A DNA stretch of 64,000 nucleotides from Poseidonibacter lekithochrous (GCF_013283835.1 NZ_CP054052.1:2790001-2854000); one strand, 5' to 3'; shown: positions 35,231 to 56,779, counted from the stretch's first letter. Made by a program: numbers and translations. The notes: generated by a model from the sequence alone, not told the origin.

Positions 35231-35292
35231 TCAATTATATTAGAAAAATTTGTATAACTTAATCTAATGAATCTATTAAAGGAGATTTAGTG

Positions 35293-37890
35293 ATGAATAA
35301 ACGATATAGTAAGCTTTCTTCAGTACTTTTAGGAACTGCACTTTCTGCGACAATTGCGTCAGCAGCTACAAGTGACCTTTCAAAAGTAATGAAAGAAAGA
35401 GGTCTTACAGAAAATGATGTTATCAGAGCTGCAAAAACATATAATCCTACAGGGGTGAAGGATGAGTATGTAATTTTCTCTTCTGGTGGTCAATCTGGAC
35501 AAGTAATTGTTTATGGTGTTCCATCTATGAGAATTTTAAAATATATTGGGGTATTTACACCAGAACCATGGCAAGGTTATGGTTATGATAAAGACTCACT
35601 TAAAGTTTTAAGACAAGGTAATATTAGAGGTAGAGAGATTAACTGGGGAGATACACATCACCCGGCACTTTCAGAAAAAGATGGGAAATATGATGGTAGA
35701 TGGTTAGCTATTAATGATAAAGCTAATCCAAGAATTGCCGTTATCGATTTAGAAGATTTTGAAACAAAACAAATTGTTCCAAATCCAGTATTTAAATCAA
35801 ACCATGGTGGAGCTTTCTTCACACCAAACTCAGAATACATTATTGAAGCATCTCAATATGCTGCGCCTTATGATAATGAATACCACGCGATTGATGATTA
35901 TAAAGAATCATACAGAGGTGGGGTTACTATGTGGAAATTCGACGATAAAATCGGTCGAATTATGCCAAAAGATTCATATACAATCGAAATGCCTCCATAT
36001 CACCAAGATTTAAGTGATGCTGGTAAAGGTGCAAGTTACGGTTGGGGATTTACAAACTCATTTAATACAGAAATGTATACAGGTGGTATCGAAGTTGGAA
36101 ACCCACCAAATGAAGCTGGTATGTCAAGAAATGATACTGACTTCTTACACGTATATAACTGGCAAAAACTTGCGGAAGTTGCAAAAGATCCTAAGAACTT
36201 AAAAGTTGTTAATGGTCACAACATTATTCCTATTGAAGTAGCAGTTAAGAATGAAGCTTTATTCTTAATTCCAGAACCAAAATCACCTCACGGTGTTGAT
36301 GTTTCTCCTGATGGGAAATACATGATCGTTTGTGGTAAATTAGATACTCATGCATCTGTTTACTCGTTTGAAAAAATTAAAAAACAAATTGACAACAAAG
36401 AATACATTGGAAAAGATCCATATGGTATTCCAATTTTAGATATGAAAAAATCTTTACATGGTCAATTAGAGTTGGGTCTTGGCCCTCTACATACACAATA
36501 CTCTCCAGTTGATGGACAAGTATATACATCATTATATGTAGATTCTCAAGTTGTTAAATGGGATTACAAAAACTTAAAAGTTTTAGATAAAGAAAATGTA
36601 CACTACAACATTGGTCACTTAGCTGGTATGGAAGGTAAAACTTCAGATCCTCAAGGTGAGTACATCATTGCATTAAATAAATTAGCAATTGATAGATTCC
36701 AAAATGTTGGTCCATTACACCCACAAAATCACCAGTTAATTGATATTTCTGGTAAAACAATGGATTTATTAGTTGATATGCCATTACCACTAGGTGAACC
36801 TCACCAAGCTGTTGGTATTAGAGCGTCTAAACTTAAACCACATGTTAGATATAAAATGGGTACAAACTCTAAGACTGGTAAGATTCATGTTGGTAAAACA
36901 CTTGCAGGTCAAGAAAGAATTGAGAGAGATGGAAACCATGTAACTATTTATGCTACATTAGTTAGATCTCATATTAATCCTGAAAGAATCACTGTTAATA
37001 AAGGTGATTTAGTAACTATGCACATGACTAACTTAGAAAGAGCGCAAGATGAAACTCACGGATTTACTATTGGTGGATTTGATCAACATGCTTCTTTAGA
37101 GCCAGGTGAAACAACTACTATGGAATTTACTGCTGATATTGAGGGTGTTTTCCCTTACTATTGTACAGAGTTCTGTTCAGCTCTTCACTTAGAGATGATG
37201 GGTTACTTAATGGTTAAAGACCCTAATAAGAAATACGTTTCTGCTACAAAAATGAAAATGAAAACAATGAGCCCTGCTGAATTAAAAGCTGAATATGAGA
37301 AGACTGTTGCTGTAAATGCTGCAACTGATTCTGTTATCCAATCAGTTGTTAAATTCTTAAAAGCTAATGGTTTTGATAAACATAAAGTAGTTGCTGATTT
37401 AGTAACAGATGCATTTGATCAATATGGACAAATTCCTGCTGAAAAGAAAAAAGCTGACGCTGCTGTTGCTTCTGGTGACATGGAAAAAGCTATTTTACAC
37501 GAAGGTATGATTTGGCAATTAATGGTTAAAACTGCTGACGTTGGTATTAGAGCAAAAGATACTCTTGTTAGAAAAATTGCAACTGAACAAAGTCCTGCAG
37601 CAGCACGTGGTGAAACTGCATTTGCTGAGGGTGGATGTAATGGTTGTCACGTTGTTGGAAAAGTATCATCAGGTCCAGATTTAACTGGTGTACTACAAAG
37701 ACATGAAAATGGTGAAGATTGGGTAAGTAGATTTATTCAACATCCTGAAACAATGTATGAAGAACCATACGTTAAAGGAATGATTGACTACTTCAAAATT
37801 AAAATGCCAGATCAAGATATGTCTGAGAAAGAAACAAAAGATATTATCGAATACTTAAAATGGATTGACGAAAACGCTAATTTATTCTAA
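35293..37890 (+). CDS. nosZ: Nitrous oxide reductase, clade II, with C-terminal cytochrome c domain
   Basis: The 865-residue periplasmic enzyme reduces N2O to N2. It has a Sec-type signal peptide without twin arginine (cleavage near 26), which marks clade II. The seven-bladed propeller contributes CuZ histidines (DTHHPALS, SPHGVDVSPDG, LGPLHTQ), and the cupredoxin domain has the CuA motif YCTEFCSALHLEMM near 620. A C-terminal haem domain carries CNGCH at about 782-786 and a Met near KMPDQDM, typical of Campylobacterota NosZ. AAAGGAG precedes both a GTG (35290) and the ATG chosen here. It has its own FNR-type promoter and is followed by an intrinsic terminator. Confidence 0.97.
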   Translation: MNKRYSKLSSVLLGTALSATIASAATSDLSKVMKERGLTENDVIRAAKTYNPTGVKDEYVIFSSGGQSGQVIVYGVPSMRILKYIGVFTPEPWQGYGYDKDSLKVLRQGNIRGREINWGDTHHPALSEKDGKYDGRWLAINDKANPRIAVIDLEDFETKQIVPNPVFKSNHGGAFFTPNSEYIIEASQYAAPYDNEYHAIDDYKESYRGGVTMWKFDDKIGRIMPKDSYTIEMPPYHQDLSDAGKGASYGWGFTNSFNTEMYTGGIEVGNPPNEAGMSRNDTDFLHVYNWQKLAEVAKDPKNLKVVNGHNIIPIEVAVKNEALFLIPEPKSPHGVDVSPDGKYMIVCGKLDTHASVYSFEKIKKQIDNKEYIGKDPYGIPILDMKKSLHGQLELGLGPLHTQYSPVDGQVYTSLYVDSQVVKWDYKNLKVLDKENVHYNIGHLAGMEGKTSDPQGEYIIALNKLAIDRFQNVGPLHPQNHQLIDISGKTMDLLVDMPLPLGEPHQAVGIRASKLKPHVRYKMGTNSKTGKIHVGKTLAGQERIERDGNHVTIYATLVRSHINPERITVNKGDLVTMHMTNLERAQDETHGFTIGGFDQHASLEPGETTTMEFTADIEGVFPYYCTEFCSALHLEMMGYLMVKDPNKKYVSATKMKMKTMSPAELKAEYEKTVAVNAATDSVIQSVVKFLKANGFDKHKVVADLVTDAFDQYGQIPAEKKKADAAVASGDMEKAILHEGMIWQLMVKTADVGIRAKDTLVRKIATEQSPAAARGETAFAEGGCNGCHVVGKVSSGPDLTGVLQRHENGEDWVSRFIQHPETMYEEPYVKGMIDYFKIKMPDQDMSEKETKDIIEYLKWIDENANLF

Positions 37891-49984: not shown

Positions 49985-51181
49985 TTATGATTTAATCATA
50001 TTGCCCATGTCCCAAATTGGCACAAATATTGCTAAAACGATCCATAAAATCAAGCCCATTAATAGGACTATAAATATAGGTTCTATGATTGATATTAAAA
50101 ATTTTATTTTTTCTTCAAATCTATTCTTGTAAATTTCTTTTATTTCAACTATCGTGATATCTAAAGAATTAGATACTTCTGCTGTATTTATAAGATTTAA
50201 TACTAAATCATCAAATATTAAAGCTTCACTAAAAGAATAATTAATAGTTTTACCATTTTCCAATAGATTCTCAATTAGCGTAATTCTATCTAAAAGGTAT
50301 TTATTTTTTAGTAAAACCTTTGAGGAAATAAGAGCTTTATGAAACTCATAATTAGATTTATGCATAATATCCAAAACTAAAAAGAGTTTATAAGCTTGGG
50401 AAGAGAGATAAATATCTTTGAATAAATAGAGTTTTTTGACTATAAATTCATCAAAATAATATTGCATTTTTTCATTATTTTTATAATATACATATAATAA
50501 AACACTAAGAATAATTAAAAAAAGCAATATGAATAAAATGTAATTAGAATATATATCATGTACAAAAAATAAAACTTTTGTTGATAATGGAAGGGCTTCC
50601 ATATTGCCACTAAATATTGATTTAAAATTAGGTATAACAAAATAAAAAATCATATTTAAAGATAAGAAGAAACTAATAAGCAAGGTAATTGGATAACTAA
50701 TAGCTTTTTTAAAATCATTTTTTATTCTTGCATTTTCATGGAGCAAAATATTAAGTGCTTTAATATTTAGTTTTATATTTCCCCTACTTTGGCATAACTC
50801 TAAAAAAGAGAATACCATCTCATCTACTTCATATTTTTCTAAAGCTTTTGTTATGGGTTTTAGATTTGTAAAAGAGTTTTTTATATCTATTAAAAATTCT
50901 TTTATTATTTCATTTTTTCTATTTTTTATTAAAATATCTAAAGCTTCTGTAAATACTATATTTGATTGAACCATAATATTAAGTTCATAAAAAAGTAAAT
51001 TTAAATCTTTATTTGAAATTTGTTTTTTCTTTGAAAAAATATTTATATTCTTTTTTATTGAAACTTCTTTGATATTCAAAATATTCAATGGTAAAGTTTC
51101 ATTTTTTATATTCTCTGTATTTATTAATAAAGATTTCTTTTTATTATTTTCTTGATATGTGATTTTGTAAGTTTTAATCAT
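49985..51181 (-). CDS. GspF/CtsF-like type II secretion platform protein
   Basis: The 398-residue protein has the T2SF layout: a cytoplasmic N-terminal part, a first T2SF domain (about 65-190) with a membrane segment near 165, a second domain (about 265-385) and C-terminal segments ending in [15 protein letters not shown], the hallmark of GspF. It is the inner-membrane platform for a type II secretion or type IV pilus-like machine; in Campylobacter the counterpart CtsF serves DNA uptake. The start overlaps the ATPase gene by 4 nt. Sequence outside the hallmarks is divergent and Asn/Lys-rich. Confidence 0.85.
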
Positions 51182-52542
51182 TGATTAATTACTTTATAAA
51201 CTTCTTCCATTGAAGTCTCAGCATTATTGACTTTTTTTATTCCATCATCAAATATTGTTTGAAAGTTTATTTCATTTAGATATTTTTTCATTGTATTTAA
51301 ATCTTCTTTTCTAAAAATCATAGAAGATATATTTTCATCTACTTTAAGAGTTTCAGCAATACAGGTTCTATCATAATATTTTGTATAGTTACACTTTTGA
51401 CAACCTTTAGAATCGCAGTATTTACAAAAACTCAAAACTAATCTTTGAGAGATTATTAGTTTTAATGTAGAAGAAACTAAAAAAGGATCTGCATCTAAAT
51501 CAAACAGTCTAGTAATTGTTTCAATACTACTATTAGCATGAATACTTGCTAATACTAAATGTCCAGTTAAAGAGGCCTGTAGTGCAATATCTAAAGAGAA
51601 CTTATCACGTATTTCTCCTATGAAGATAATATCAGGATCTTGTCTCAAAATATTTTTTAGAATTAACTCAAAATTTAAACCTATTTTATTATTCACTTGT
51701 ATTTGTGATATAGATTCTATTTTATACTCAATGGGGTCTTCAACTGTAATAACTTTCTTTTCATTTGATTTTAATTCTTTTAACATTGAATATAAAGTAG
51801 TTGTTTTACCTGAACCAGTGGGACCAGTAATTAGTATTAAACCTTGGGTTAATTTCAATGAGCTTACAATCTCTTTATATATAGAAGAAGATAATCCAAG
51901 AGAATCTAAAGACTTACTAACATTTTTATTATCAAGTATTCTAATTACAATAGATTCAGCTTCTAAAGTAGGCATTGTTGATAATCTAAAATCATAGTTT
52001 TTATTTTTTACTATTAGTGAGAACCTACTATCCATTGGTAATCTAAACTGAGTAATATCTAAGTTTGATAATAGTTTTAAATAAGACGATAGAATTTTAA
52101 AGAGTTTAATATCAAAGGTAAAAAATGTATTTAATCTTCCATCTATACGAAAACGAAATAGTATAGACTCAGAATATTGTTCAAAGTGAATATCACTAGC
52201 TCTAAGCTCAATAGAGAAGCTTAATAATGTATAAATGAACTCTTGTACAAACTTATCACTTGAAGCATTAAAACATATAGCTTTATTAGCAAGATTAAAT
52301 AATTCTATCTTTTCATTTATATGAGATAATAAAAATTGTAAATCTTCTTTTTTTACTTCTTTGAACTTAACTAATTTTTTAATTCTAGATTTTATATCTA
52401 AAAGTTTTGACTCTTTACAAACAATAAAATGAATTGAAATATCATCTTCAAAATATGGCAAAACTAAAGAGTTTTCAAAATACTCTTTTTCCTCAATATC
52501 AAATAATGAATAGTCAATTTTAGTATTCCTGATATTTGTCAT
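51178..52542 (-). CDS. GspE/CtsE-like secretion ATPase
   Basis: The 454-residue ATPase has a short N-terminal domain, ASDIHFE near 117, Walker A ITGPTGSGKTTT near 240, Asp box and Walker B DPDIIFIGEIRD near 300, and a zinc site of four cysteines (CKYCDSKGCQKC near 375). It powers pilin or pseudopilin movement. Campylobacter CtsE is the closest named counterpart by operon and phylum. AAAGG lies 9 nt before the ATG, and the 5' end overlaps the upstream gene by 23 nt. Confidence 0.9.
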   Translation of the reverse strand: MTNIRNTKIDYSLFDIEEKEYFENSLVLPYFEDDISIHFIVCKESKLLDIKSRIKKLVKFKEVKKEDLQFLLSHINEKIELFNLANKAICFNASSDKFVQEFIYTLLSFSIELRASDIHFEQYSESILFRFRIDGRLNTFFTFDIKLFKILSSYLKLLSNLDITQFRLPMDSRFSLIVKNKNYDFRLSTMPTLEAESIVIRILDNKNVSKSLDSLGLSSSIYKEIVSSLKLTQGLILITGPTGSGKTTTLYSMLKELKSNEKKVITVEDPIEYKIESISQIQVNNKIGLNFELILKNILRQDPDIIFIGEIRDKFSLDIALQASLTGHLVLASIHANSSIETITRLFDLDADPFLVSSTLKLIISQRLVLSFCKYCDSKGCQKCNYTKYYDRTCIAETLKVDENISSMIFRKEDLNTMKKYLNEINFQTIFDDGIKKVNNAETSMEEVYKVINQ

Positions 52543-53188
52543 TTTTATAAACCTTTAGTTTTATTTTCTTGTCATCAAAAGATAAAGTTACACTATTTTT
52601 AGAAATAACAATTAATTCATAATCACTAATATATTCACCTAGTTCTAACCACTTATTATTTATTAACACTGTTTTATCAATAATTGCTTTTAATTTAAAC
52701 TTCTTAGATTTACTCTTTTTTACTGTCTCTTTAGAGTTTGGCGTCTTAAAAAAATACTTTTCAAAACTAACTGTAATTTCTAAATTATATTTTTTTGATT
52801 GTTTATTTTTGTCTATGGATAAGTTTTTTATATTTGAGTATGTATTTATATTTTCTAAAAAAGATACAAAGTCTTTTATTTTATTTAAAGATAAAGTACA
52901 ATTAATAAGTATCTCTTTTCTTTCATTATTCATTGAATTTATTTTTATTCTTTTGACACTTGTATATTCTTCTATATTTTTATTCATATCTAAAAGAGAT
53001 TTATCAAACTCCTCTATTTTATAACTAATAGATTTTGTAAGAGTTTTATCATTATTAAAAAGAAGTGGTATATTATAAATAATCAAAGAAAATAGAATAA
53101 AAACTAGTAAATATAGTTCTACTTTTACTTTAAATGAACTATTAATAAAACTATTTTCTAAATGTTTTAATATTCGCATTACAAACAT
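52520..53188 (-). CDS. Bitopic protein resembling GspM/PilO with a GspC/PilP-like end
   Basis: From ATG 53186-53188 the protein has about 222 residues: a short cytoplasmic part, one membrane segment (KVELYLLVFILFSLIIYNI), a periplasmic coiled and beta region like PilO/GspM, and a C-terminal beta segment (INNKWLELGEYISDYELIVI then VTLSFDDKKIKLKVY) with the PilP/GspC pattern. An ATG 39 nt further upstream is open but overlaps the previous gene by 77 nt. The role, linking the platform to the outer membrane, is inferred from topology and from the E and F genes that follow. C. jejuni CtsX is a possible counterpart. Confidence 0.6.
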   Translation of the reverse strand: MFVMRILKHLENSFINSSFKVKVELYLLVFILFSLIIYNIPLLFNNDKTLTKSISYKIEEFDKSLLDMNKNIEEYTSVKRIKINSMNNERKEILINCTLSLNKIKDFVSFLENINTYSNIKNLSIDKNKQSKKYNLEITVSFEKYFFKTPNSKETVKKSKSKKFKLKAIIDKTVLINNKWLELGEYISDYELIVISKNSVTLSFDDKKIKLKVYKNDKYQEY

Positions 53189-54032
53189 AAACCTTTTTAT
53201 CTTTAATAAATTCAATAGAGTTTCCATCTAATTTATCTTTGTAAGTATCTAAAAAAGAATAAATACTATTTCTGTTTTTTGAGAAAAAAGAGAGTTCTAA
53301 TCTATTTTCTTTATATATAAACTCATTTAAGATTAAATCATTTTTTGAAAGCTTTGTTAATAAATATTTTATATCGTCATCTAAGTACTTGTATTTATGT
53401 TTATTTTTATAGTCTAAAAAAGAGTTTTTATTCTGAATATTTATATTCAATAAAAGATTATCTTTTACACTATATAAGTAATATAAATAAACTGAAATTG
53501 ATACTACTAAAAGAAGTACAAAACTCACAAAAAAAGTAAAACTTTTATTTTTTATTTCTGATATATTTATTAGTTTTGTTTTTAAAGAAGACTCTATATA
53601 TTTATTTTTTAATACTTCTCTTTTATCTAAAGAGATCTTATAAATATTGTCTACTTTTAAATTTAGATTTTTGTGAATATATTCTACTAAGTCTTCATTA
53701 TTGATTTCATAGTTTAGTTTTTGATAATAATAAAACTCTTGATTTACATAAAGTACAAAAAACTCATCACATAAAAAAATATCAATAGAATCACTTTTAT
53801 TCTCATAAAAACATTGGAATATATCTAGTTCTAAAAATGAGAACTTTTTATCAAAAATAAATACTTGGTACTTATTAGATTTATATAAATAAGAAGTATA
53901 TAAATTCTCTTGCTTAAGTTCAATATTTTCTAAACTCAAAGAAGTAAGAATAAATTTTCTTAAATTGTTTTGTTTTATTTCTTCATTAACATCTATTAAA
54001 ACAGTATTTATATCTTGGGATTTGGCAATCAT
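53151..54032 (-). CDS. Bitopic protein with GspL-like topology
   Basis: I do not recognise the family. The 293-residue protein has a cytoplasmic N-terminal half of about 165 residues, one membrane segment (FTFFVSFVLLLVVSISVYLY near 167-186) and a periplasmic C-terminal half. This is the topology of GspL or a PilM-PilN fusion, which hold the GspE-type ATPase at the membrane. Its 3' end overlaps the next gene, and GspE- and GspF-like genes follow, so membership of that machine is likely. No actin-like ATP motif is evident. Confidence 0.55.
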   Translation of the reverse strand: MIAKSQDINTVLIDVNEEIKQNNLRKFILTSLSLENIELKQENLYTSYLYKSNKYQVFIFDKKFSFLELDIFQCFYENKSDSIDIFLCDEFFVLYVNQEFYYYQKLNYEINNEDLVEYIHKNLNLKVDNIYKISLDKREVLKNKYIESSLKTKLINISEIKNKSFTFFVSFVLLLVVSISVYLYYLYSVKDNLLLNINIQNKNSFLDYKNKHKYKYLDDDIKYLLTKLSKNDLILNEFIYKENRLELSFFSKNRNSIYSFLDTYKDKLDGNSIEFIKDKKVYVCNANIKTFRK

Positions 54033-54130: not shown

Positions 54131-54156
54131 TTATAAGAAGTAAAGACTTCCTATAA
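54131..54156 (-). terminator. Terminator of era
   Basis: On the minus strand TTATAGGAAGT (54146-54156) pairs with ACTTCTTATAA (54131-54141) over 11 positions with one G-U around a 4-nt loop, overlapping the era stop, then runs into TTTAATAAAT. Confidence 0.6.
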
Positions 54157-55035
54157 TTCGATATCATAACCAAGATCTTTAAGACCTTGCTTATTTTTTG
54201 TCCAACCTTTTTTGATTGAAACGAATAATTCTAGGTAACATTTTCTACCTGTTAATTTTTCGATTTTTAATCTAGCATCTTTACCAATTCTTTTAATTGC
54301 ACTAGCATTTTTTCCAATAATCATACCCTTCTGAGTACTTTTTTGAACAATGATAGTTGCTTTGATTACATCAACCCCTGGTTTTTCTTCTACTTTATTT
54401 ACTAAAACATCTGTTTCATAAGGAATTTCATCTGAAATATTATCAAAAATTGATTCTCTAATAAACTCTTTAAAGATATCTCTTAAGTGTTCAGTAGTCA
54501 TGATCTCAGGATCAAATAAATATGGATGTTCTGGTAAATGTTTAACTACACTGTCTAAAATATTAGCATGAGTTGTAGCTTTTTTAATAGAAACTGGAAT
54601 AACAGATTCATATCTATCTGAGAACTTTTCATATTCTTTCATTTTTGCTAAAACTTCTTCATTACTTACATTATCGATTTTAGTAAGTAATAAAACATGT
54701 TTTACATTCTTTTTATTTTTTACTAAGAAGTCTTCATAATGTGTTAATTTATCAGTAACTGGGGCTAAGAAAAGAATTAAATCACAATCACCCATCGCTT
54801 TTAAGGCTTCTTCTAACATAAACTGATTTATAAGTTTTTCTGTTTCGTGAATACCTGGTGTATCTACAAAGATGATTTGGTCATCTTCATGCATAACTAT
54901 AATATTTGATCTTTTTCTTGTTGCATTCGCCTTGTGTGATACCATCGCAATTTTTTCACCTACAAGCCAGTTAAGCAGTGAACTTTTCCCTGCATTTGGT
55001 CGACCTACAACAGATACATAACCACATTTAGTCAT
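54151..55035 (-). CDS. era: GTPase Era
   Basis: The 294-residue protein has the GTPase motifs GRPNAGKSSL near 11, FVDTPGIHE near 57 and LLTKID near 119, and a C-terminal KH domain (VQKSTQKGMIIGKNASAIKRIG near 228-249). Era binds the 3' end of 16S rRNA and acts in 30S assembly. It lies downstream of the ComM-like gene and upstream of the secretion-like operon but is separated from the latter by its terminator. Confidence 0.96.
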   Translation of the reverse strand: MTKCGYVSVVGRPNAGKSSLLNWLVGEKIAMVSHKANATRKRSNIIVMHEDDQIIFVDTPGIHETEKLINQFMLEEALKAMGDCDLILFLAPVTDKLTHYEDFLVKNKKNVKHVLLLTKIDNVSNEEVLAKMKEYEKFSDRYESVIPVSIKKATTHANILDSVVKHLPEHPYLFDPEIMTTEHLRDIFKEFIRESIFDNISDEIPYETDVLVNKVEEKPGVDVIKATIIVQKSTQKGMIIGKNASAIKRIGKDARLKIEKLTGRKCYLELFVSIKKGWTKNKQGLKDLGYDIEL

Positions 55036-55128: not shown

Positions 55129-56640
55129 TTATCTTCTTCTAAAATTTAGGCTTTTTAGTAGGTCTGTTTTTTCTATTTTTTCATTACCATTTAAATCAGC
55201 AATTGTCCTTGCAACTTTTAAAACTTTGTTTATACTTCTAAAAGATAATTGATAATTTACAATTGCTTTTTCTAATAATTCTGAAGATGTATCATCCAAT
55301 ACACAATATTTTTTAATCTCTTTATCACTTAATTTTCCATTTAACTCTATTTGTCCTCTTTCTTTTTGAACAATAAAAGCTTTTATTACACTCTCATGTA
55401 ACTCTTTTGAGCTAACTTTATTTTTATTGTCTTTAAAACTATCATTCATAACTACATATAAATCAATACGATCTAAAAATGGTTCAGAAAGCCTATTTTT
55501 ATATCTTTGAATTTCCATTTCATTACATCTACACTCTTTTACAGTTGAAAGTAAATTTCCACAAGGACATGGATTCATTGCAGATATAAAAGTGAACTTT
55601 GTGTCATAGGTAGTTTTTGTATTTACTCTTGATATTAAAATTTTATTATCTTCTAAAGGTTCACGTAAAGCCTCAAGAACAGATTTTGAAAAGTGAGGCA
55701 ATTCATCAAAGAATAGAATTCCATTATTTGATAATGCAATCTCACCTATTTTAGCATTTGAACTTCCTCCTCCAAATATTGAAGACTTAGTACTACTATT
55801 ATGAGGTGCTCTATAACTTCTTTGTGGAATAAAATCAACTTCTTTATAATCTAAAGCTTGAAGTTTAGCTTTTTCTAGTATTTCATCCAAACTCATTGGA
55901 GGCATTATATATTTCAATCTTTTAGCAATCATTGATTTTCCACAGCCAGGACTTCCTTCCATAAGCAAATTATGGTTTCCTGCAGCACTAACTAAGGCTG
56001 CAAACTTTGGAATATCTTGACCAAAGATATCTGAGAAATCTTCATCATATTTATTATCAAAGTAAAATTCTTCATTTTTGATAGTGATTTTATCAAAGGT
56101 CATTTCATCTTTTTTAAATCTATATTTTTCTTTATCATCTGACTTAAAAAAATCAATTGCGGAAGAAATATCTTTTATTACATATATTTTAAGATTAGGT
56201 ATTTTTGATATTTTTTTTGCAGTGTTTTCACATACTAAAATAGAATTAATTTCCTTTTGTTTTGCTAGGGATAAAACAATGGGAAAAATAGATGATGTAT
56301 CTTTAATTTTTCCATCTAATCCTAATTCACCAAAAATATAATAATCTTCTAGATTAATATTTTTTTCATTGTATAAACAAATAAGCAAAGCAATTGATAA
56401 GTCAAAATGGGAACCTTTCTTTTTTATTTCAGAAGGGGAAAGATTTACAATTATTTTCAAAGGAGGAAACTTAAAATCATTTGTTAATAATGCTGACTTT
56501 ACTCTCTCCTTCGACTCACTAATACTTGTTGAAATCAAACCAACAATTGTAAACGATGGCAAACCTTTTGTAAATGTAGCTTCAACATTGACACATAAAG
56601 CATCTAAAGAATCTAATGACGCTGATTTTATATATTTCAT
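55129..56640 (-). CDS. ComM/YifB family Mg-chelatase-like ATPase
   Basis: From the ATG at 56638-56640 (GGA 6 nt upstream) the product is 503 residues. An N-terminal Lon-like fold (SSEIKKKGSHFDLSIAL-type passage near 70-90) is followed by an AAA+ domain with Walker A GSPGCGKSM near 233, Walker B ILFFDELPHF near 310 and a C-terminal Mg-chelatase part with the zinc-like CPCGN...CRC cysteines near 360. ComM is a hexameric helicase that promotes branch migration in natural transformation. Its nearness to the competence-like operon agrees with a DNA-uptake role. Confidence 0.9.
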   Translation of the reverse strand: MKYIKSASLDSLDALCVNVEATFTKGLPSFTIVGLISTSISESKERVKSALLTNDFKFPPLKIIVNLSPSEIKKKGSHFDLSIALLICLYNEKNINLEDYYIFGELGLDGKIKDTSSIFPIVLSLAKQKEINSILVCENTAKKISKIPNLKIYVIKDISSAIDFFKSDDKEKYRFKKDEMTFDKITIKNEEFYFDNKYDEDFSDIFGQDIPKFAALVSAAGNHNLLMEGSPGCGKSMIAKRLKYIMPPMSLDEILEKAKLQALDYKEVDFIPQRSYRAPHNSSTKSSIFGGGSSNAKIGEIALSNNGILFFDELPHFSKSVLEALREPLEDNKILISRVNTKTTYDTKFTFISAMNPCPCGNLLSTVKECRCNEMEIQRYKNRLSEPFLDRIDLYVVMNDSFKDNKNKVSSKELHESVIKAFIVQKERGQIELNGKLSDKEIKKYCVLDDTSSELLEKAIVNYQLSFRSINKVLKVARTIADLNGNEKIEKTDLLKSLNFRRR

Positions 56641-56779
56641 AAACAATCCAATAAAATAATTTTCTACAGTATTTTATCTTTATTTCTTATAAAATAACTA
56701 AATTAGTAATTAATATTACTAATTTTTTGAATTATTTAATCAAAGGAAAAAAATTGTCATTTTTTCTATATATTTATGT

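Follow-up and report, generated by a model that had tools for sequence, protein, structure and literature searches.

Natural transformation of Campylobacter jejuni requires the Cts genes (PMC10046745 and papers cited there), which are arranged as ctsR-D-P-X-E-F in Campylobacter and as N-O-PilP-D-P-X-E-F, behind era, in other Campylobacterales. In C. jejuni, the pseudopilin gene cj0683, on which efficient DNA uptake depends, precedes priA (PMC10046745); the pseudopilin gene ctsT is cj1077 and proC is cj1076 (PMC8308473), so that ctsT adjoins proC by locus number. A. butzleri is naturally transformable and has homologues of E and F; ctsX, ctsP and ctsR were listed as absent (PMC8308473). Besides the Cts machine, it is already known that MSH-like loci occur in Epsilonproteobacteria (Denise et al. 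2019, PMC6668835) and that the secretin of one machine can serve another, as in the type III secretion system (T3SS) and in filamentous phages using secretins of the type II secretion system (T2SS) or of Tad; little secretin transfer was reported between pilus-type systems (PMC6668835). Here we describe four minus-strand genes, called L, O, E and F, at 49985-54032 of a stretch of 64,000 nucleotides from Poseidonibacter lekithochrous (the window, positions 2790001-2854000 of a 3.57 Mb single contig, NZ_CP054052.1). We consider it probable, from sequence comparison, that they encode the inner-membrane motor of a competence pseudopilus, a form of the Cts machine that has lost its secretin CtsD and would use a T2SS-type GspD in its place.

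The four open reading frames have overlapping ends, are flanked by era and folE, and were found at exactly the coordinates given in a preliminary description of this DNA. The same description had recognised an ATPase, a platform protein and two bitopic proteins; Pfam identified E as T2SSE (1.5e-111) and F as T2SSF (4e-23), and one transmembrane helix was predicted in each of the other two (L, about residues 165-183; O, about 38-56). It had also noticed that secretin, pseudopilin and prepilin peptidase are lacking at this four-gene locus, and none was found among its open reading frames. The top-scoring NCBIfam models for E and F were those of GspE and GspF. For O, a start at 53179 appears more likely than the one at 53227, because of the better upstream site at that ATG and the agreement with the start in relatives. 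The features are as follows:

53151-54032, minus strand: L, 293 aa, GspL/PilN-type bitopic protein, shortened CtsN orthologue
53541-54032, about 53484-53540 and 53151-53483, minus strand: cytoplasmic part, transmembrane helix and periplasmic part of L, as predicted
52520-53227, minus strand: O, 235 aa, apparent bitopic fusion of a PilO-like and a PilP(CtsR)-like part
about 52544-52696, minus strand: PilP-type HR part within O
51178-52542, minus strand: E, 454 aa, assembly ATPase, short CtsE without the MshEN domain
about 51799-51825, minus strand: Walker A of E, invariant GPTGSGK
about 51391-51426, minus strand: four-cysteine motif of E, invariant C373/C376/C381/C384
49985-51181, minus strand: F, 398 aa, inner-membrane platform, CtsF orthologue, Pfam T2SSF
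54151-55035, minus strand: era, Era by NCBIfam, ancestral upstream neighbour and marker of the cts slot, outside the machine
55129-56646, minus strand: yifB (ComM-like), TIGR00368, a neighbour judged incidental

A scan of genome contigs with E returned, among the matches listed, at least six Campylobacterota loci and otherwise generic GspE/PilB proteins, which was enough to identify the Cts operon. In C. concisus (locus L099) and in 20 further Campylobacterales loci the full layout is N-O-PilP-CtsD-CtsP-CtsX-CtsE-CtsF, comprising N of about 508 aa, O of 215 aa, a PilP/CtsR-like protein of 145 aa, the secretin CtsD, the AAA ATPase CtsP, the TPR protein CtsX and CtsE of 583 aa, frequently preceded by a 180-aa protein; a few of these loci are without CtsP, CtsX or both, or without a recognised PilP. 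There, era stands directly before the operon or two genes upstream, and since it also adjoins L, the window operon sits in the cts slot. In the family of the window, the order era-L-O-E-F-folE was kept with few exceptions across 20 loci of many genera, none of which contained a secretin. The L gene is carried by 83 of the 104 family genomes, single-copy apart from chance extra matches, and E-type genes are present in most of the genomes that gave no L match. In the gene trees, F and CtsF formed one clade (support 0.998-1.0) with the GspF of the same genome outside it, and E grouped with CtsE (support 0.75-0.81). Gene order and phylogeny make it nearly certain that the operon is the Arcobacteraceae orthologue of the Cts competence operon. 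By position and by phylogeny it is a Cts operon, yet it fails the full Cts gene content: CtsD, CtsP and CtsX are missing from the locus, PilP is fused to O, L has 293 aa against about 508, E is without the MshEN domain that the C. concisus CtsE contains, and the secretin available is of the T2SS type and encoded far away. CtsP and CtsX are absent from the window locus and from the family loci, the rest of the genome not having been searched for them, and the genome has no CtsD-type secretin, its secretins being only T2SS GspD and Tad. Thus, of the preliminary label of a reduced type II secretion or competence-like operon, the competence-like part holds through the orthology with Cts, while that of a reduced T2SS does not, as F, and less firmly E, group with Cts and apart from the T2SS encoded by this genome.

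Some variants of these loci were also seen. In one genus (L057, 2206-3159; L061, 1697-2650), F and folE are separated by a CorA-like gene of 317 aa, which is not in the window. In the Campylobacteraceae genus g43 (L177, L178, L179, L180, L191), no N or O was recognisable upstream of CtsR/CtsD, and L177 and L178 were also without CtsP. Near-identical transposase-like genes of 454 aa occur inside the operon of genome G005 (L188, 4414-5778) and between era and L in genome G084 (L068, 6243-7607). Finally, a few family genomes have extra MSH- or type-IV-pilus-like clusters with an ATPase of 555-565 aa, apart from the window-type operon (L186 in G102; L190 in G051).

L and O are so diverged that Pfam gave no match for L and sub-threshold matches only for O, and Pfam and Protein Data Bank profile searches started from the two proteins yielded no usable match. 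Profile-profile comparison was more informative. L aligned over its full length with CtsN (probability 96.7, E 3.4e-10) and reached a probability of only 28 with the T2SS GspL; the figure for CtsN comes from deeper alignments, a first comparison with shallow ones having given a probability of 13. The N-terminal part of O matched CtsO (94.7, E 6e-8) and its C-terminal part CtsR/PilP-like proteins (98.7, E 2e-16). CtsN, CtsO and CtsR were by far better matches to L and O than GspL and GspM. Because the two parts of O match proteins encoded by genes that are separate elsewhere, O is, on these profiles, a true fusion of a PilO-like and a PilP/CtsR-like protein. This agrees with the preliminary description, which had suspected such a fusion in the second bitopic protein and had assigned the pair a GspL-like and PilO/PilP-like topology: the first member is a shortened CtsN and the second the PilO/PilP-like fusion. 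A GspL/GspM or PilN/PilO fold would comprise ferredoxin-like periplasmic domains and, in L, an actin-like cytoplasmic domain; the profile matches back it for the periplasmic parts only, and the AlphaFold2 models, built for L from a single sequence and for O from a 5-row alignment, were of low confidence, with a pLDDT of about 48. A 217-aa PilO+PilP fusion also occurs in a Helicobacteraceae-like genome (L184, 8423-9076, in G287), whose cts operon retains D, X, E and F; since it stands beside a retained secretin, the fusion may have arisen twice.

The genome has two secretins: the GspD of a complete T2SS operon (2735-2746 kb in this genome, G000, locus L018), whose GspC has a PDZ domain and whose 3' end encodes x209, a protein with an SH3 domain, and the secretin of a Tad pilus locus (3209-3219 kb, L026), which lies beside TadE-like genes and comes with a prepilin peptidase of its own. 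The T2SS operon is placed between cadC-murA-x365-x204-x209 and yigZ-tlyA-ribF-cmoA-prx. In relatives without a T2SS the same slot reads murA-x365-x204-gspD-yigZ-tlyA-ribF, and a tblastn search with twelve T2SS proteins found no T2SS gene besides gspD in 23 such lone-gspD loci. Among the good-quality genomes that have the operon and no T2SS, 44 of 46 encode a GspD-type secretin that stands alone; the remaining two are both fragmented drafts, and one of them shows an N-terminal piece of GspD in a short open frame close to the start of a contig. In 34 of the 44, by our count, GspD is the sole secretin. No good genome was found with a lone gspD and no trace of the operon, as at least L was always there; in three genomes (G019, G041, G066) L is present and E was not detected. 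Moreover, in the complete genome G005, in which a transposase gene breaks the operon, O and E are gone and F is shortened, no GspD-type secretin is left. By elimination, slot retention and this co-loss, the pore lost with CtsD was probably replaced by a T2SS-type GspD.

The secretin tree gave some insight into how this may have come about. The lone secretins of the family and the T2SS GspDs formed one clade (0.996), separate from CtsD. In the genera nearest to the window, the lone GspDs were interleaved with the GspDs of intact T2SS operons in the same slot. If the T2SS in the slot was ancestral there, about five separate deletions would be required, with gspD spared each time; the alternative, in which newly arrived T2SS genes came to flank a resident gspD on either side, would have to have happened three times or more and appears less likely. 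In deeper genera the lone secretin represents an older lineage, and any T2SS sits elsewhere with a GspD of its own. Some lone secretins are shortened: they retain the N0 domain and the pore, whereas of the repeated N domains one or two are gone. In T2SS and in type IV pili, the HR/PilP domain docks on N0.

The remaining parts of a DNA-uptake machine are encoded elsewhere in the genome, where ComEC is found at 2168.7 kb, a PilD-like peptidase at 3378 kb, and pseudopilins not belonging to the T2SS at several places: behind dnaB, before priA, and behind proC, where they form a set of three. The search for secretin and pilin genes suggested in the preliminary description thus found secretins, pseudopilins and prepilin peptidase, all encoded outside the locus, so that no objection to it comes from that side. 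The pseudopilins linked to proC and priA match the positions reported for ctsT and cj0683 in C. jejuni; like the genomic ComEC, they are shared with the Cts system. The proC set is kept in most of the loci checked; it is missing behind proC in G048, which has neither the operon nor ComEC, and also in G073, where the operon is nevertheless present. No PilT-like ATPase was found in the genome, and the lack of such a second ATPase fits a pseudopilus better than a retractile pilus. Among 88 good-quality genomes, ComEC is absent in four of the five without an intact operon (G005, G048, G053, G089, G090) and in one of the 83 with it (Fisher p 1.1e-5, not corrected for kinship). These losses of operon and ComEC are confined to three genera and thus represent about three events, not four, and, since three of the four genomes lacking both have a T2SS, ComEC tracks the operon and not the T2SS. 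Orthology, co-occurrence and the competence of A. butzleri (PMC8308473) make it very likely that the operon serves DNA uptake. The published picture of A. butzleri (PMC8308473) can be refined in that, on our profile comparisons, a CtsR-like part exists, fused to O.

From the gene content, orthology, domain fusion, synteny and co-occurrence observed, we infer DNA uptake by the operon, through GspD and with O docked on N0, as follows. E would hydrolyse ATP and, via F and the L/O scaffold, assemble a short periplasmic pseudopilus; its pseudopilins would come from the genes behind proC, before priA and behind dnaB, with the PilD-like peptidase processing them. The PilP-type HR domain of O would dock on the N0 ring of the T2SS-type GspD, and DNA would be drawn through the GspD pore into the periplasm and handed to ComEC. 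In the genome of the window, where the only GspD is that of the intact T2SS, it would serve both machines, with the prepilin peptidase also proposed as shared; in relatives without a T2SS, gspD alone would have been retained for DNA uptake. With less assurance, we lean towards the further view that in this bacterium one GspD acts as pore both for T2SS protein export and for Cts-type DNA import, and that several related lineages deleted the whole T2SS but spared gspD, on which uptake still depended. The case resembles the co-option of secretins by T3SS and phages, with the difference that here it is a DNA-uptake machine that takes a T2SS secretin, which stays in the T2SS slot after the loss of the T2SS. 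In the open-access literature we came across no account of a T2SS secretin serving a competence machine or of the gspD remnant, and nothing relevant on orphan T2SS-type secretins or on Arcobacter secretins. If true, this would identify the outer-membrane pore, missing until now, through which an entire bacterial family takes up DNA, and provide a natural example of a protein-secretion secretin turned to DNA import. On the inner-membrane side, it would define L, the O-PilP fusion, E and F as the smallest set of a competence machine, and correct the view that A. butzleri lacks inner-membrane Cts parts, whose homologues earlier work missed because they are diverged and fused.

Several points weigh against this proposal. 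The E tree supports the Cts grouping only moderately, the case for the function of the operon is made of comparative evidence, and the gene assignments for A. butzleri are those of PMC8308473, which we linked to no named genome. The direction of change, that is loss of the T2SS around gspD and not its gain, is itself inferred. The genome of the window has the Tad secretin too. Furthermore, operon and T2SS occur together in 34 good genomes; 21 of these encode a further GspD-type secretin, which is missing from the other 13, that of the window among them, so that sharing is not universal.

Four other explanations were weighed against a Cts-type machine using GspD. The lone gspD might be kept for another role, such as export of filamentous phages or of some exoprotein, its link to the operon being a phylogenetic coincidence. 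Phages and T3SS do co-opt secretins (PMC6668835), and operon and gspD are both near-universal in the family, so that the co-occurrence test has few negatives; but a lone gspD never stands without an operon trace in a high-quality genome, GspD is gone where the operon is broken, and the gene tree implies several independent losses of T2SS that spared gspD each time. This explanation seems unlikely to us. We give slightly less credit to a Cts-like machine working with the Tad secretin, or with no dedicated secretin: the Tad secretin is at hand in this genome and binding of O to GspD is a proposed step, but the only secretin of 34 good operon genomes is of the GspD type and not Tad, and gspD is the sole T2SS gene remaining in the slot. 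It is improbable that the operon builds an MSH-like adhesion or surface pilus and has no part in DNA uptake. The Cts lineage does recall MSHA in its gene order, MSH loci are reported in Epsilonproteobacteria, as mentioned, and full Cts loci combine MshEN, an AAA ATPase and a TPR protein, comparable to MshE, MshM and MshN; however, the most MSH-like features (the MshEN domain and the MshM-like and MshN-like proteins) are those missing from the window operon, whose locus also has no MshL or major pilin, C. jejuni does not transform without its Cts genes (PMC10046745), and ComEC accompanies the operon. Finally, a second, reduced T2SS exporting proteins through the GspD of the main one is very improbable, for although the two systems share the superfamily of their ATPase, platform, GspL/GspM-type pair and HR domain, E and F score best with GspE/GspF models and the family secretin is GspD-like, F (E less firmly) falls in a separate clade with Cts, L and O are far closer to the Cts proteins, the locus has no PDZ-bearing GspC, GspN or pseudopilin set, and three T2SS-positive genomes without the operon are also without ComEC.

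As for the neighbourhood of the operon, the ComM-like gene nearby had been taken in the preliminary description as a hint of DNA uptake. We rejected YifB/ComM as a functional partner: it adjoins era only in this family and in other families stands beside neither era nor cts, and it carries no weight because other genes precede era-cts there. Elsewhere in the window, from 35290-37890 on to about 43916, lies a cluster resembling a nitrous oxide reductase (nos) locus.

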